From Lactobacillaceae bacterium (lineage in GTDB: Bacteria > Bacillota > Bacilli > Lactobacillales > Lactobacillaceae), in NCBI GenBank assembly GCA_902834055.1, contig CADFHB010000001.1, positions 124,001-188,000 of the forward strand: 64,000 bases of DNA. Direction: 5' to 3'. The position numbers were made by a program, and so were the translations under genes. Shown one piece after another: positions 7,327 to 47,689 of the stretch (its first letter is position 1; each line of letters begins with the position of its first letter). Below the pieces are notes generated by a model, which was not told the DNA's origin, did not search any database, and saw nothing but the letters and a program-made list of their open reading frames with translations.

Positions 7327-7773
7327 TTGGTAGACAGTGTATTTGGTAATCTTGACCGCAAACGAACAACGGAAGCATTTAAGCAATATTTGAAGGAATG
7401 GAAGAAGTGGAAACTTAAAGCACTACAACGTTTCCCAGCTGTGGGATCGCCTAGTATGGACGGGCAACCTAATGACGGTACGCCACACGACCCTGACGCT
7501 CGGTTTGTTAGTTTCTCAGAAGCTAGCTATCAGTATCAAACACGGGTTAAATGTTGCACGGTATTGATGAGTGTAGGTGAAGAAGAAGAAATACTAGGTG
7601 ATATCTTACTGCACCGTTTTATTAAGGGCTGGTCAGCGGTAAGAACGATGAATTACATTAATGAGAAATATAACGCTTATATGAGTGATAGAACCTTTAA
7701 TGTTAAGCAGGAACAAGCGTTGTGGGAAGGAGCATTGATGTGTCCAGATGATTCTGTCCGAATACGAAAATAA
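7327..7773 (+). CDS. ArpU-family late transcription regulator
   Basis: A 148-residue protein of the ArpU/RinA-like group that switches on the phage late operon. Features typical of the group are the N-terminal basic helix (FKQYLKEWKKWKLKALQRFP), the ARFVSFSEASYQYQTRVKCC segment and a C-terminal helix-turn-helix region (LHRFIKGWSAVRTMNYINEKY). It starts with TTG after AAGGAG. It lies exactly between the early region and the packaging genes, as such regulators do, and directly before the structured RNA region, so that region could hold the late promoter it acts on. Confidence 0.8.
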   Translation: MVDSVFGNLDRKRTTEAFKQYLKEWKKWKLKALQRFPAVGSPSMDGQPNDGTPHDPDARFVSFSEASYQYQTRVKCCTVLMSVGEEEEILGDILLHRFIKGWSAVRTMNYINEKYNAYMSDRTFNVKQEQALWEGALMCPDDSVRIRK

Positions 7774-7774
7774 A

Positions 7775-8290
7775 AGGCTGCAGATAATCTGCGCATTAAT
7801 TGCGGAAAGCCTGCATAAAGTCAGCAGATTACGGCCGAAAATCCATCGTATTATGATATTGTTCGATAATTTAATCGAACTCATGATTACTAAATACACG
7901 ACCTGAACAACGTCGTTAAAAGGTTCTATATACGTTGTTGATGAAGATGTTCTGCGTATACTCACATATACTCATGATCTCGTGTTAGACGTATAACCGG
8001 AACGGTGGAAAACCGTCTTGATTAGTGTGAGTCTATAATCCGGCTTTCACCCGGGAATACAATTTGATGTCATTAGAATGCTTTTAATAATTAATCTCCC
8101 TAAAATAAATTAAGTAAAGTCACTATGCAGTATCAATCTTTCCCGGGTGTCCGGCGCAATGCGCAAAGAAGCTCGCAATCTGCTTCAACGGCTTGGGGTT
8201 GCACGGTAAGGCAAGCTAAGATTACCCTTTGCATTTGGAAGAGCAGTAGATACTCTACGGAGCCTGCTGCGGGGTAACGCCTTACATTAC
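7775..8290 (+). ncRNA. Large structured RNA candidate (ROOL/GOLLD-like)
   Basis: Over 700 bases after the ArpU stop hold no supportable protein gene but many perfect helices. Examples: AGGCT/AGCCT 7775-7779 with 7808-7812, enclosing GCAGA/TCTGC; a 7-bp hairpin 7861-7867/7874-7880; AACAACG/CGTTGTT 7906-7912/7933-7939; ACGGT/ACCGT 8002-8006/8012-8016; a 10-bp long-range helix CACCCGGGAA 8048-8057 with 8140-8149; GCGC-AAT-GCGC 8154-8164; GAAGC/GCTTC 8168-8186. A nested arm 8206-8285 stacks GTAAGGC/GCCTTAC, TTACCC/GGGTAA, AGCAG/CTGCT and a GTAGA/TCTAC triloop. Size, prophage location and a tRNA-like neighbour match the large phage RNAs ROOL and GOLLD known from Lactobacillales. Family membership is inferred, and both ends are approximate. 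Confidence 0.7.
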
Positions 8291-8391
8291 GCTGATGTGT
8301 GAAGCAGAAAACTCACTGCAATGTGCAGGGTTGGGTGCTGTTCATGGTCATTATGGGTTACCATAAGGCGGTTCGATTCCGCCCATCAGCA
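8291..8391 (+). other. tRNA-like module at the 3' side of the structured RNA
   Basis: GCTGATG (8291-8297) pairs perfectly with CATCAGC (8384-8390), followed by a discriminator-like A. Just inside it is a perfect T-arm: GGCGG, loop TTCGATT, CCGCC (8367-8383). The rest is not canonical: a 4-bp D-stem candidate GTGA/TCAC encloses a loop without GG, and an extra hairpin CTGCA/TGCAG and a long variable-arm-like hairpin ATGGT/ACCAT are present. A degraded anticodon arm near 8325-8341 would present UGG (proline) with a following G. At 101 bases it is too long for a normal tRNA and no CCA is encoded. Either a decayed tRNA or a tRNA mimic. Confidence 0.6.
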
Positions 8392-8393
8392 TT

Positions 8394-8439
8394 GAGCAAC
8401 GCATCATTTCACTGAGTGGTCAGAGGAGTTCAGTTGCTC
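8394..8439 (+). other. Hairpin between tRNA-like module and terminator
   Basis: GAGCAAC (8394-8400) pairs with GTTGCTC (8433-8439). It sits directly after the tRNA-like module and before the terminator, so it is likely part of the same transcript's 3' end. Confidence 0.45.
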
Positions 8440-8452
8440 GAAATATCACCCA

Positions 8453-8479
8453 AGCCTAGTCATTTGACTGGGCTTTTTG
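8453..8479 (+). terminator. Intrinsic terminator after the structured RNA
   Basis: AGCCTAGTC (8453-8461) and GACTGGGCT (8466-8474) form a 9-bp stem with one G-T pair and an ATTT loop, followed by TTTT. The flanks also pair: ATATCACCC just before and GGGTGATAT just after. It would end a transcript of about 700 bases starting after the ArpU gene. Confidence 0.85.
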
Positions 8480-8502
8480 TATTATTGTTTTGGGTGATAT
8501 AT

Positions 8503-9324
8503 ATGGACAAAAAAGAAGAACTTAAAGCAATAATGGAGCATCCTGAGTATATGCTAATTGCTGAAAATAAGACATTAAAGCAGAGAATTAATTCTAAAAA
8601 GATAGGAAAGGAGGATGTCAAAAAAGCCGTGGCAGTAACAGCTAAAAATAAAGGTAAATCTTTAGTTTCGGATGTATTGAATGGTAAATGGTTCGATCTA
8701 GTATATGACTTTGTAAATACAGGTGAGCAATTAAGAGATAAGCTAGATGATGCTAAAAAAATGCGTTTAATTGGTGAATGTTTGCAAAAGTCAGATAACC
8801 ATGAAAAAATGTTGAACAGCCTTGTTGATTTGATTACTAATCCATATGGACTGACGTTATATTTGAAAATAGTTAACTTGCTTTCAGAAGCTCCAGTAGA
8901 CGGCGATATGCTTGATATACTGTCCGATTATTTAAGTAATCTTGCAAAGGAAGATAACTTAGAAAAGGCATTTTCAAGAAACAAAACAATTCTAAACTTG
9001 ATTGATAAGTGTTCCCCTCAGGCGTTAATTCTTTTAAGAAGGGCTGATGAATGGCCTTTGGTAAAAGGAGTAAAGGTTTTAGAAATAAATAACGGCTATG
9101 TTCAAGGGGACAATAGTCGGCCAATTGCTAAATCTTTTGTAGAAGCTAAGCAATTTAGTTCAATACCAGTTGATGATATGCAAATGGCCATTATTGATTT
9201 AGATACAAATGGATTAGCTAAATTAGTATATGGTACTATGATGTCCAATCCATCAAGGAAAATTACAGTTGAACAGTTAACTGATTTAGGTAGGATTGTT
9301 AGAGAAGCAATAACGAGAAAGTAG
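8503..9324 (+). CDS. Unknown accessory protein (phage moron candidate)
   Basis: A 273-residue, mostly helical soluble protein starting MDKKEELKAIMEHPEYML. The frame is open upstream through the terminator, but the ATG at 8503 is the first start outside it; the ribosome site is weak (GGGTGAT). The gene is clearly more AT-rich than the head and tail genes, and is framed by a terminator on each side, the pattern of an independently acquired moron. Residues about 185-205 (LIDKCSPQALILLRRADEW) and 250-270 (ITVEQLTDLGRIVREAI) recall the layout of the DUF4393/Abi-alpha group, but this is only a resemblance. Function unknown. Confidence 0.65.
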   Translation: MDKKEELKAIMEHPEYMLIAENKTLKQRINSKKIGKEDVKKAVAVTAKNKGKSLVSDVLNGKWFDLVYDFVNTGEQLRDKLDDAKKMRLIGECLQKSDNHEKMLNSLVDLITNPYGLTLYLKIVNLLSEAPVDGDMLDILSDYLSNLAKEDNLEKAFSRNKTILNLIDKCSPQALILLRRADEWPLVKGVKVLEINNGYVQGDNSRPIAKSFVEAKQFSSIPVDDMQMAIIDLDTNGLAKLVYGTMMSNPSRKITVEQLTDLGRIVREAITRK

Positions 9325-9340
9325 ATAATCATTAATTGAA

Positions 9341-9363
9341 GTCAGCCTAGCGCTGGCTTTTTT
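9341..9363 (+). terminator. Intrinsic terminator, first copy of a repeated element
   Basis: GTCAGCC, then TAGCGCT, then GGC and a T run. AGCC pairs with GGCT, or CAGC with GCTG. The 23 bases are identical to 9625-9647. It ends the moron gene upstream. Confidence 0.8.
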
Positions 9364-9382: not shown

Positions 9383-9634
9383 ATGGACATAAAAACACTA
9401 TTATTCAAACTAAATCAAATCGATTGTGTTATAGCAACTTGTAAAGATTCATTTCTAACAATTAGAATGCTAAAGTTTAAGCCTTTATTTGTAGACCTTG
9501 CGAGCGATACATATAACGTAAACTACTTGCCACCATTGCCTCCGGTAGAATGGATGCAATTAGCAGGACGAAGAGATTATGACAGATGGCATGAAGTCTT
9601 TAACGTGCTAAGAAAATATTATGAGTCAGCCTAG
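9383..9634 (+). CDS. Hypothetical small phage protein
   Basis: An 83-residue protein beginning MDIKTLLFKLNQIDCVIATC, with a GGGGAGG ribosome site. It has a proline-rich middle (YLPPLPPVEWMQL) and an aromatic C-terminus. Its stop codon TAG lies inside the following terminator hairpin, so translation and termination overlap. No family recognised. Confidence 0.6.
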   Translation: MDIKTLLFKLNQIDCVIATCKDSFLTIRMLKFKPLFVDLASDTYNVNYLPPLPPVEWMQLAGRRDYDRWHEVFNVLRKYYESA

Positions 9635-9647
9635 CGCTGGCTTTTTT
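9625..9647 (+). terminator. Intrinsic terminator, second copy
   Basis: Identical over 23 bases to 9341-9363 and again followed by a GGAGG ribosome site and a new small gene. The last codons of the upstream gene are encoded by the hairpin itself. Confidence 0.8.
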
Positions 9648-10798: not shown

Positions 10799-11335
10799 AT
10801 GTCTAAGTATAGACGGTGCAGGCAGCCTGGTTGCCATGCGATGGTTGCATTCCCTAATCACTATTGCACTAAGCACTTCGAACATGAGGCTGAGTACCTA
10901 GCTAATAGGCAGCGTTGGGCACGTAAGCACGCCGAACAATACCAGCACCATGATAAGAGATATGCTAAGCACTACAATACTGTGACTCGTAATCGTAATG
11001 AAGAACGTAGTGAACAGTATAAGTTCTATCGTAGTAAACAATGGGTCGACTTAAGGCAATCGGTGTTAGACCGTGACCATTACCTATGTCAATACTGCAA
11101 AGCATATGGCAAGCTAACACCAAACAGCAAAACAGTTGATCACATTGTGCCGATTGCATATGACAACTCGATAATGGCAAGCAAGGACAACCTTGCAACA
11201 ATCTGTCGAGAATGTCACAGGCTCAAGACACAGTGGGAGCAATCCTACTATGGAACCGGTCAAAACAATACCAAAAAGGATGTCCCGGAGATCCACGACA
11301 TCCACCGGATATCTATTTTGATGCGACGAAAATAA
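10799..11335 (+). CDS. HNH endonuclease beside the terminase
   Basis: A 178-residue protein. The N-terminus has a small zinc-binding region (CRQPGCHAMV, then HYCTKH), a charged helix follows, and residues about 95-150 form the HNH domain: LCQYCKAYGK, VDHIVPIAYD, and ICRECHRLKT. In HK97-type cos phages an HNH protein encoded next to the terminase genes assists cutting at cos during packaging. Position immediately before a cos-like region and terS supports that role. Confidence 0.88.
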   Translation: MSKYRRCRQPGCHAMVAFPNHYCTKHFEHEAEYLANRQRWARKHAEQYQHHDKRYAKHYNTVTRNRNEERSEQYKFYRSKQWVDLRQSVLDRDHYLCQYCKAYGKLTPNSKTVDHIVPIAYDNSIMASKDNLATICRECHRLKTQWEQSYYGTGQNNTKKDVPEIHDIHRISILMRRK

Positions 11336-11461: not shown

Positions 11462-11917
11462 GTGGTTAAAAAGGCTTATTATCAGCAGAATAACGGGCAT
11501 TTACCGGCTACACCGCCGCATTATTTAGGCACTCTAGCTAGTGCCTGTTGGCGCAAAATCGTGCCCTTTTTAGAATCGACTGGACGGGTTGAACGAATCG
11601 ACGTTGGTTTGGTCGAACAATACTGTGCCAACTATGAAATCTACCGGAATGCTTACCAGGATATCCAGGATAACGGAATTCAAGCTAAGATCTTTACTTC
11701 ATTACAAGATTCAACTGGAAAAATCGTTGGTAAGGACTTTGCAGGCTTTAGGAAGAACCCGGCGGTGGCTACCATGAAGGACGCTCTGAATCAGCTCAAC
11801 TCAGTTGGCATTCAGCTAGGGCTATCGCCTAAGAGTCGGCAGGAACTAATGCGGATTGCCAGTCGTAAGAAAGAGAAGTCAATGGCACAACAACTTAAGG
11901 AGGCTGGACTTGTATGA
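11462..11917 (+). CDS. terS: Terminase small subunit, P27 family
   Basis: A 151-residue protein that recognises phage DNA for packaging. It matches the P27 family: an N-terminal LPATPPHYLGTLASACWRKI segment, a central LVEQYCANYEIYRNAYQDIQ helix and the C-terminal QLGLSPKSRQELMRIA motif. The start is GTG, preceded by AAAGGAGG. Its end overlaps terL by four bases. Confidence 0.92.
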   Translation: MVKKAYYQQNNGHLPATPPHYLGTLASACWRKIVPFLESTGRVERIDVGLVEQYCANYEIYRNAYQDIQDNGIQAKIFTSLQDSTGKIVGKDFAGFRKNPAVATMKDALNQLNSVGIQLGLSPKSRQELMRIASRKKEKSMAQQLKEAGLV

Positions 11918-45712: not shown

Positions 45713-47689
45713 GTGACCACGAAAAAGGTAAAATATGATGAATCGTCAATTCAGGTATTAAAGGGGCTTGAAGCTGTCCGTAAGCGTCCAGGGATGTATA
45801 TCGGGTCCACAGACGCACGGGGGCTCCACCACCTGGTGTATGAAATCGTTGATAACGCCGTTGATGAAGCATTATCTGGCTACGGTGATGAAATTAACGT
45901 GACAATTGAGGCGGATAATTCAATTACTGTCCAGGACCATGGTCGGGGGATGCCCGTGGGGATGCACGCTTCAGGGAAGCCTACTCCGGAAGTTATTATG
46001 ACGGTCCTCCATGCAGGGGGAAAGTTTGGCCAGGCGGATGGTTATAAGACCTCTGGTGGTCTCCACGGGGTTGGTGCGTCGGTCGTTAATGCTCTCTCCA
46101 CAAATTTAAAGTTAACGATTGTTCGTGACCATGTTCGTTACCAAGAGAAGTTTAAAAACGGTGGCCAACCGGTTGGAACGTTGAAGAAACTTGGTAAAAC
46201 CCGGGAGCAAAGTGGGACAACTGTCTCGTTTAAACCGGACCCGGCAATCTTCACCACGACGGTTTACGACTACAACACCCTCGCTAATCGTTTGCGGGAA
46301 TCGGCCTTCCTTTTGAAGGGAATCAAAATTGTGCTGACCGATAAGCGGGCAGGACAGGAAAAGCAGGATGTCTTCCAGTACAAGGATGGCATTCAGGAGT
46401 TTGTTTCCTACCTTAATGAGGGAAAGGATACCCTGGGAAAGATCATGTACTTTGACGGTAAGGACCAGGGGGTTGAAGTAGAAGTGGCCGCTCAGTATAA
46501 CGATGGTTACTCTGAGACCCTCCTATCCTTTGTTAATAACGTTCGGACACCGGATGGGGGTACCCATGAGGCGGGATTCAGAAGCGCCTGGACCAAGACC
46601 TTCAACGAGTATGCTAAGCGGGTCGGCCTGTTAAAGAACAACGATAAAAACCTGGAGGGGAGCGACGTCAGAGAAGGGCTCACGGCCGTTATCTCCGTGC
46701 GGATTCCAGAACGACTGTTGCAATTTGAAGGACAGACCAAGGATAAGCTTGGTACGCCAGAAGCCCGCAAGATTGTTGATACGATTGTCAGTGAGCAATT
46801 GAACTATGCCCTAATGGAAAATGGTGACTTCACTCAGATGTTAATCCGCAAGTCCCTGAAGGCCCGCGAAGCTCGTGAGGCTGCCCGGAAAGCCCGTAAC
46901 CAGGCCCGGGGTGGCAAACGGAAGAGCCGCAAGGAACGTAACCTTTCCGGTAAGCTAACGCCGGCCCAGTCAAAGAATGCCCAGAAAAATGAGCTTTTCT
47001 TAGTCGAAGGGGATTCAGCCGGTGGTTCCGCAAAGCAGGGTCGGGACCGCAAGTTCCAGGCGATCTTGCCATTACGGGGTAAGGTTCTGAATACGGAAAG
47101 GGCAAAGCTAGATGACGTCTTGAAAAACGAGGAGCTAAACACCATTATCTACACGGTTGGTGCTGGCGCTGGCTCGGAGTTTGACGTTAAAGACGCCAAC
47201 TACGATAAGATCATCATCATGACCGATGCCGATGACGACGGGGCCCACATCCAGATTCTTCTTCTTACCTTCTTTTATAAGTACATGCGGCCAATGATTG
47301 AAGCCGGCAAGATTTATATCGCGTTACCACCCCTTTACCGTCTTCAGCAGGGGCGGGGAGCAAAGACGAAGATTACCTATGCCTGGACAAACGAAGAGCT
47401 TACTAAGCTGACCAAGAGAATGGGTAAGACTGCCCAATTGCAACGTTTCAAGGGGCTCGGTGAAATGAATGCGGACCAACTTTGGGAAACTACCATGAAC
47501 CCAGCCACCCGGACCTTGATCAGGGTCCGAATTGAGGATGCTGAACTAGCCGAACGGCGGGTCACAACCCTGATGGGGAACAAGGTTGAGCCCCGGCGGG
47601 AGTGGATTGAAAACAACGTTCAATTTACCCTTAGTGATGACCAAGAATCCGATAAACTGGTTGCCAGCAAGAAGCATTTGAATAAGTAA
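45713..47689 (+). CDS. parE: DNA topoisomerase IV subunit B
   Basis: A 658-residue GHKL ATPase subunit of topoisomerase IV, which separates daughter chromosomes. ATP-binding parts are VYEIVDNAVDEALSGY and DHGRGMPVGMH; the Toprim part has EGDSAGGSAKQGRDRKFQAI and MTDADDDGAHIQ. Between them is a lysine and arginine rich stretch typical of ParE/GyrB. The start is GTG with GGGAGG upstream. It is followed 17 bases later by parC. Confidence 0.97.
   Translation: MTTKKVKYDESSIQVLKGLEAVRKRPGMYIGSTDARGLHHLVYEIVDNAVDEALSGYGDEINVTIEADNSITVQDHGRGMPVGMHASGKPTPEVIMTVLHAGGKFGQADGYKTSGGLHGVGASVVNALSTNLKLTIVRDHVRYQEKFKNGGQPVGTLKKLGKTREQSGTTVSFKPDPAIFTTTVYDYNTLANRLRESAFLLKGIKIVLTDKRAGQEKQDVFQYKDGIQEFVSYLNEGKDTLGKIMYFDGKDQGVEVEVAAQYNDGYSETLLSFVNNVRTPDGGTHEAGFRSAWTKTFNEYAKRVGLLKNNDKNLEGSDVREGLTAVISVRIPERLLQFEGQTKDKLGTPEARKIVDTIVSEQLNYALMENGDFTQMLIRKSLKAREAREAARKARNQARGGKRKSRKERNLSGKLTPAQSKNAQKNELFLVEGDSAGGSAKQGRDRKFQAILPLRGKVLNTERAKLDDVLKNEELNTIIYTVGAGAGSEFDVKDANYDKIIIMTDADDDGAHIQILLLTFFYKYMRPMIEAGKIYIALPPLYRLQQGRGAKTKITYAWTNEELTKLTKRMGKTAQLQRFKGLGEMNADQLWETTMNPATRTLIRVRIEDAELAERRVTTLMGNKVEPRREWIENNVQFTLSDDQESDKLVASKKHLNK

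Follow-up and report, generated by a model that had tools for sequence, protein, structure and literature searches.

What does a folded stretch of DNA without an evident gene encode when it lies directly behind the gene for a phage late transcription activator? We address this question for positions 7774-8480 of a 64,000-nucleotide (nt) stretch of a Lactobacillaceae bacterium genome (contig CADFHB010000001.1, positions 124,001 to 188,000), here called the window, to whose numbering all positions refer. The gene-free stretch is bounded by the activator gene (7327-7773) and by a function-unassigned gene (8503-9324, phrog_15873). We interpret it as the source of a non-coding RNA, roughly 610 nt long, that an activator-dependent late promoter of the phage would transcribe first and from which tRNA mimics would be cut out by host tRNA enzymes; we put the probability of this reading at roughly 0.5. 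The window and its relatives share one order of elements: first an Alt/Ltr-like activator gene, iterons of 11 base pairs (bp) and an extended -10, then a pseudoknotted core with covariation, a tRNA-like unit that lacks an anticodon loop, and an intrinsic terminator. In the window the elements are these:

7327..7773, + strand: late transcription activator gene, matching phrog_248 ('transcriptional activator') at E 9.8e-10
7774..7838, + strand: 11-bp iterons, about five by eye; a repeat finder gives three 13-nt copies spaced 33 and 11
7849..7862, + strand: extended -10, TATTATGATATTGT
7898..7926, + strand: 5′ H-type pseudoknot, stem 7898-7902/7912-7916, loop pairing 7905-7908/7923-7926, pairs checked
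7997..8043, + strand: multibranch element, closing helix CCGGA/TCCGG, inner hairpin 8002-8016
8048..8149, + strand: 10-bp long-range helix, 8048-8057/8140-8149, 10/10 pairs
8136..8202, + strand: Lacto-phage-1-like domain with an H-type pseudoknot, 8168-8172/8182-8186 and 8175-8180/8197-8202
8206..8285, + strand: ornate arm closed by GTAAGGC/GCCTTAC, 7/7 pairs
8291..8391, + strand: tRNA-like unit, acceptor 8291-8297/8384-8390 with 7/7 pairs, T arm 8367-8383 with 5/5 pairs, discriminator A8391
8394..8439, + strand: 3′ hairpin GAGCAAC/GTTGCTC, z -3.75, 1/200 shuffles as good
8452..8480, + strand: intrinsic terminator, stem 8452-8461/8466-8475 with 10/10 pairs, then a T run

The first part of the stretch resembles a known type of late promoter. 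According to the accessible part of one source (PMC13123087), promoters of the Ltr/Alt/RinA type have an activator gene just upstream, direct repeats at the 3′ end of that gene and late genes downstream, and the window likewise has an activator gene directly upstream, direct repeats and a -10; the words 'terminator' and 'non-coding' are absent from that part of the source, whereas the window locus has both a terminator and a folded RNA. A Pfam search with the window's activator protein gave no match, and the activators at the same place in the loci L163, L244 and L246 match phrog_36 and the Alt-like phrog_2198. Across 21 loci, self-match in the iteron region is 0.551 at a lag of 11 and 0.509 at a lag of 22, compared with 0.256 and 0.267 in the preceding stretch. 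The best 66-nt self-similarity score of the window's iteron region has a z of 4.7, and a single position in the 64 kb, at 46155, scores higher; the strongest 11/22-base self-similarity of the entire window, at 46150-46220, lies outside the RNA locus. We regard the iterons as putative and probable binding sites of the activator, and the repeat word varies between phages, as expected if each promoter were matched to its own activator. The extended -10 is present in 20 of the 21 loci (L231 being the exception), counted with a list of variants compiled from these same sequences. Judged by its iterons and -10, the segment from 7774 to about 7868 is promoter DNA and not RNA; because these elements fill it, the RNA would run from about 7869 to the terminator at 8452-8480. 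The preliminary description, which took all of 7774-8480 as RNA, therefore stands from this inferred start onward and gives way to promoter DNA before it.

The stretch as a whole is strongly folded and poor in coding potential. Its predicted minimum free energy (7774-8480) is -221.7 kcal/mol, against -190.8 +/- 6.9 kcal/mol in 20 shuffles (z -4.48), and the longest complete + strand open reading frame (ORF) in 7869-8480 has 50 amino acids. In the core region the longest ORF varies from 19 to 70 amino acids across 20 loci, a comparison of lengths and not of frames. Short ORFs whose lengths shift between loci speak against a protein gene within the folded stretch, and these lengths show no sign of the conserved frame that would have refuted the preliminary description. 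A minus-strand ORF of 110 amino acids (7633-7965) is mostly antisense to the activator gene, and the gene at 8503 has an alternative start at 8416 that lengthens it. The description of the region as gene-free and highly folded thus held, as did the long-range pairing, the arm and the terminator stem that it had named, all of which pair in full.

A large pseudoknotted RNA fold is supported by covariation in 18 relatives together with the window. The relatives were reached through their terminase and activator genes, and further ones through the Rfam family RF03004; a nucleotide search with the window region in phage and plasmid collections gave no match. Our alignment of the 19 sequences extends from the multibranch element through the end of the Lacto-phage-1-like domain, and the eight helices tested were taken from the structure of one aligned sequence, L221. 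L232 represents L110, L233 represents L218 and L220 represents L108, and we excluded L237, which has no multibranch element, L229, which is close to L228, and L225 and L239 (with L240 and L241). These last were dropped because L240 (G038 contig 1) looks like a record artefact: start and stop codons mark the ends of its blocks, whose order is the reverse of that in the relatives, and L241, from the same contig, has the same reversed core.

Over the eight helices 88.3% of alignment cells are paired (shuffled mean 81.0), two-sided changes occur in 20 of the 45 core pairs (10.9 in shuffles) and the covariation score is 0.237 (0.128 in shuffles), values that none of 500 shuffles reaches, so that the compensatory changes proposed as a check in the preliminary description are present in related prophages. 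The count of further pair types in these helices is not raised, as 325 of 500 shuffles reach it. Controls in which partners were slid pair 26-44% of cells, although a structure drawn from an aligned sequence tends in any case to score above its slid versions. Of the eight helices, the pseudoknot between the last Lacto-phage-1 hairpin loop and the tail after CAACGGCT is the strongest, with 100% of cells paired and four of six pairs changed on both sides, and the weakest, at 58.8% of cells, encloses the loop of the long-range pairing and is missing from the window. The long-range helix is paired in 96.5% of cells, with the window's own 5′ strand misaligned there. With strands listed by hand, this helix has 8 distinct strand pairs, in which 71 of 72 positions pair within a pair and 341 of 504 when strands are mixed; the multibranch closing helix has 6, with 30 of 30 own and 91 of 150 mixed. 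In both helices the hand-listed strands of the window diverge widely from those of relatives, yet pair in full. The strands of the 5′ pseudoknot in relatives were also listed by hand and serve as a description, not as a statistical test. The ornate arm, whose segment 8203-8290 folds with a z of -2.53 (2/200 shuffles as good), recurs in L236 (nhmmer E 1.3e-6) and L237 (nhmmer E 0.0046), where its closing helix is changed but intact (GCAAGGC/GCCTTGC and GTAAAGC/GCTTTAC, respectively).

To which family does this RNA belong? By model score the nearest in Rfam is Lacto-phage-1 (RF03004), reportedly first described by Weinberg and colleagues in 2017. The window reaches 24.4 bits (E 0.036), below the gathering cut-off of 50 bits, and five of the six loci scanned exceed the cut-off at the same site with 69-98.8 bits (L124 has no match). 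The two 3′ hairpins of the family and their CAACGGCT junction, CAGCGGCT in some rows, are present in the window and the alignment; the family's first helix is poorly paired in the window and paired in 58.8% of alignment cells. The model comprises 81 nt and covers, in the window, a single domain of a larger RNA. In the printed RF03004 structure, from which the pseudoknot is thus absent, the tail that follows CAACGGCT is drawn unpaired. At E <=0.001, RF03004 has matches in 16 of the 50 genomes searched from the genus; 13 of these exceed the cut-off, and one, G038, is a doubtful record. A sample of the family gave matches in 8 of 396 genomes (7 over the cut-off), all of them in the genus and already found there; this second search ran with stricter filters that lose weak matches. 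A profile of the L219 core matches 7847-8202 of the window at E 2.2e-7. An 18-base pattern gave 107 stretches in viral contigs, was unspecific and was not used, and a search of viral contigs for the motif TAGATACTCTACGGAGCCTG, common to L236 and the window, gave no match. The 5′ part of the core is carried by the Limosilactobacillus (L.) reuteri phages LR1 and LR2, followed in LR1 by another module and tRNA-like units at which no feature is annotated. No phages outside Limosilactobacillus were found to carry the ornate core. A literature search on Lacto-phage-1, with most subscription papers outside its scope, found no paper.

The preliminary description had instead proposed a member of the ROOL or GOLLD families, or a new relative with a fused tRNA-like end. 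The Rfam models of the two gave no match in the window at gathering score or in 7700-8600 at E up to 10, and none in 14 related terminase loci (gathering score) or six phage stretches with the same slot (E <=0.05), which leaves membership unsupported; what remains of the proposal is a covarying large RNA with a tRNA-like unit, so that the family guess was wrong in name and close in kind. According to the accessible part of Kretsch et al. 2025 (PMC12286853), ROOL and GOLLD form cages and are frequently encoded close to tRNA islands, and some GOLLD linkers contain tRNAs; the accessible part of Cousin et al. 2017 describes an abundant megaplasmid RNA of L. salivarius with unsettled function. Like ROOL and GOLLD, the window RNA is a large ornate phage RNA beside a tRNA-like element; it differs in that neither of their models matches and many units of this slot have no anticodon arm.

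The tRNA-like 3′ part that had been noted in the window is borne out by complete acceptor and T-arm pairing and by the folding of 8291-8391 (z -3.32, 0/200 shuffles as good). Two odd arms lie inside it, and the arm at the anticodon position has a 4-nt loop in the predicted fold in place of the 7-nt loop of a canonical tRNA. ARAGORN calls neither a tRNA nor a tmRNA in the window, which speaks against an ordinary gene of either kind, and Rfam at gathering score does not call the unit. Non-decoding tRNA-like ends processed by tRNA enzymes are familiar from the tRNA-like domain of tmRNA and from the mascRNA of MALAT1. In contrast to tmRNA, no tag frame is called in the window, and its unit sits in a phage late leader; an Rfam beta_tmRNA match in the window covers only the 17-nt T arm, at 13.7 bits.

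Comparable units follow the core in related loci. Under a looser rule, one to three units stand after the core in 19 of 22 core-type loci (none in L228, L237 and L112; L224, where other sequence follows the core, was omitted), with 29 units on the late strand, 0 on the opposite strand and a mean of 0.25 in 20 shuffles. Some are near-normal: ARAGORN calls a tRNA-Asn in L113, with the same acceptor and at the same place as the window's unit, a tRNA of unknown type in L109, and Trp and Pro tRNAs in L219 and L218. A hairpin like that at 8394-8439 was seen by eye in L234, L235, L236 and L110.

The slot itself, with its order of activator, tRNA-like units, terminator and terminase, recurs in other Lactobacillales phages, and there we applied a strict rule (acceptor 7/7 pairs, T arm 5/5 pairs, T loop TTCRA). 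In 141 loci (2.23 Mb) this gave 73 units on the late strand against 1 on the opposite strand and 0, 1 and 0 in three Markov controls; the loci are partly redundant, with many near copies, and the 73 units reduce to 49 distinct ones, two of which (in L195 and at 2457 in L216) look like chance matches inside genes. A strict unit lies within 7 kb upstream of the terminase gene in 41 of 75 loci, these being the ones among 110 terminase loci with at least 5.4 kb of upstream sequence. The looser rule is noisy in coding DNA, where the 34 strict-negative loci give 58 matches on the late strand and 22 on the opposite strand; for terminase loci we therefore use the strict count only. The interiors of the 49 units measure 25-28 nt in 24, a normal 39-42 nt in 8, and other lengths in 17. 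An interior of 25-28 nt is too short for an anticodon arm. The units concerned, 56-59 nt long and called armless here, retain the acceptor and both the D and the T arm, which are separated by 8-10 unpaired bases. CCA is encoded in none of the 49 units, and a T follows the discriminator in 45.

Among 23 aligned armless units, acceptor and T arm are paired in 100% of cells. All 7 acceptor pairs and 3 of the 5 T-arm pairs have two-sided changes; these mostly distinguish one group of 18 units from another of 5, and few pairs change within the larger group. The D-arm helix reaches 83.7% because five units with a 25-26-nt interior have it shifted by one column. The D-loop GG and most T-loop bases, which make the tRNA elbow, are invariant, and acceptor sequences differ between the groups. 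Examples upstream of terminase genes, in plantarum- and brevis-type phages, are L163:7509-7567, L126:7118-7174 and L244:6000-6056, and at least 120 viral stretches carry one armless-unit motif, counted wherever placed. The published records of Sha1, phiJL-1 and Lb have no feature annotated at the units, and that of 3-SAC12 has 'tRNA-OTHER'; in Lb and Sha1 the activator gene is followed by the units, one or two genes and the terminase. Literature searches for phage or late-leader elements that resemble tRNA or lack an anticodon, mostly in non-subscription papers, named nothing comparable. That many lactobacillus phages appear to open their late region with odd tRNA mimics seems to us a more surprising result than the window RNA itself. 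By eye, L244:6326-6464 and L216:7650-7841 are large Leu-like units with a second T-arm-like hairpin in the middle, resembling a tRNA mimic nested in a tRNA mimic.

Termination downstream is equally regular. Of 23 loci with a core, all 23 have a + strand terminator no more than 900 nt past it. For 35 further loci, namely 33 with armless units plus L136 and L168, the search extended 800 nt beyond the unit and gave a terminator in 33 (not in L186 and L213), though a few of these 33 matches may lie in the next gene. Among upstream control segments, 1 in 21 has one. Three + strand terminators, at 8452, 9338 and 9623, separate the window's promoter from its HNH nuclease and terminase genes. The second and third (9338-9360 and 9623-9643) are near-identical (GTCAGCCTAGCGCTGGCTT), each following one of the two small genes behind the RNA, in what looks like a row of small cassettes in the late region.

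In the mechanism that we favour, the activator would switch on the promoter late in the lytic cycle, and most transcripts would end at the 8452 terminator. Host RNase P and tRNase Z would take the acceptor/T-arm unit as their substrate, with cuts on the 5′ side of 8291 and the 3′ side of A8391; this would give the core a defined 3′ end, and a host enzyme would add CCA to the mimic. Some polymerases would read through into the late genes. Cleavage by RNase P and tRNase Z is the simplest option because acceptor plus T arm is the minimal substrate of both, no CCA is encoded and a T so regularly follows the discriminator. We place the function most probably in the tRNA-like units, since these, the activator promoter and the terminator are common to loci with this slot and the ornate core has turned up only in Limosilactobacillus.

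Three terminators between the promoter and the terminase genes make a role in cis worth considering, in which the RNA would be a leader that renders its own polymerase terminator-resistant, by put-like processive antitermination, past 8452 and the two later sites. A non-coding RNA and a terminator also stand between late promoter and late genes in the lambda PR′ leader (6S RNA) and in HK022 put; the window differs from these in its activator-type promoter, 11-bp iterons and tRNA-like units and has no known antiterminator, and put, for its part, is a small RNA of simple structure. In favour of a cis leader, a terminator generally follows the RNA, and none of the 15 best iteron-like windows falls between 8480 and the terminase genes. 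A single transcript for packaging, structure and lysis genes is attributed to Ltr/RinA promoters in the accessible part of PMC13123087. However, the plantarum- and brevis-type leaders inspected have terminators and no ornate core, and read-through or an unrecognised promoter would serve equally, so we consider a cis leader unlikely. We hold it less probable still that CCA-tailed mimics without a usable anticodon act as decoys, absorbing host or defence factors that bind the acceptor end or elbow of tRNA and leaving decoding undisturbed: the armless units, which lack an anticodon arm, do preserve the acceptor, the GG of the D loop, the T loop and the discriminator, and some loci hold several, but no target is known and their acceptors vary between groups.

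An RNA assembly of the ROOL or GOLLD kind, with tRNA-like units as cargo or linker, would suit a large, pseudoknotted, prophage-borne RNA beside tRNAs whose long-range helix holds the palindrome CCCGGG, and cages and linker tRNAs are reported for those families (Kretsch et al., PMC12286853, accessible part). Given that no ROOL or GOLLD covariance model matches, and that units occur in phages where no large core was seen, we judge this improbable, below the decoy. Lowest of all we place the idea that the units are decayed tRNA genes without present function. Normal and odd units do stand side by side, relatives differ in the units they hold, and the near-normal unit of L113 shares both acceptor and position with that of the window; decay of this kind is hard to reconcile with acceptor and T arms that are kept, on one strand and at one site, while the decoding part is lost.

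Returning to the late RNA with host-matured mimics, one may tentatively extend it to a widespread and so far unrecognised class of tRNA mimics in Lactobacillales phages, many of them armless. They would be the first product of the late promoter, matured by the host, and might act on tRNA-handling factors rather than in decoding, for instance as decoys against defences directed at the acceptor end; in Limosilactobacillus phages they would be joined to a large RNA with pseudoknots, and Lacto-phage-1 would represent only a fragment of it. The role of large phage RNAs beside tRNAs is an open question, and this locus ties one such RNA to a probable promoter, a terminator and a seemingly non-decoding tRNA mimic. 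The lactobacilli concerned are tractable, and the L. reuteri phages LR1 and LR2 hold relatives, which makes the question testable. If the mimics are indeed matured and act in trans, phage tRNA-like genes would need to be re-read, and the pattern hints at an overlooked phage use of tRNA mimicry.

The wider surroundings look like those of a prophage. Two further genes lie downstream of the folded stretch:

10799-11335: HNH nuclease
11462-11917: small terminase, behind the HNH gene

The large terminase is 92% identical to prophage terminases of Limosilactobacillus fastidiosus and L. caviae, on which ground the window very probably represents a prophage of Limosilactobacillus. Two minus-strand ORFs that lie between the RNA and the HNH gene resemble a toxin-antitoxin pair: 9877-10260 matches a HicB-like antitoxin at E 8.4e-6, slightly short of the Pfam cut-off, and 10320-10505 matches a HicA toxin at E 6.7e-8, over the cut-off.
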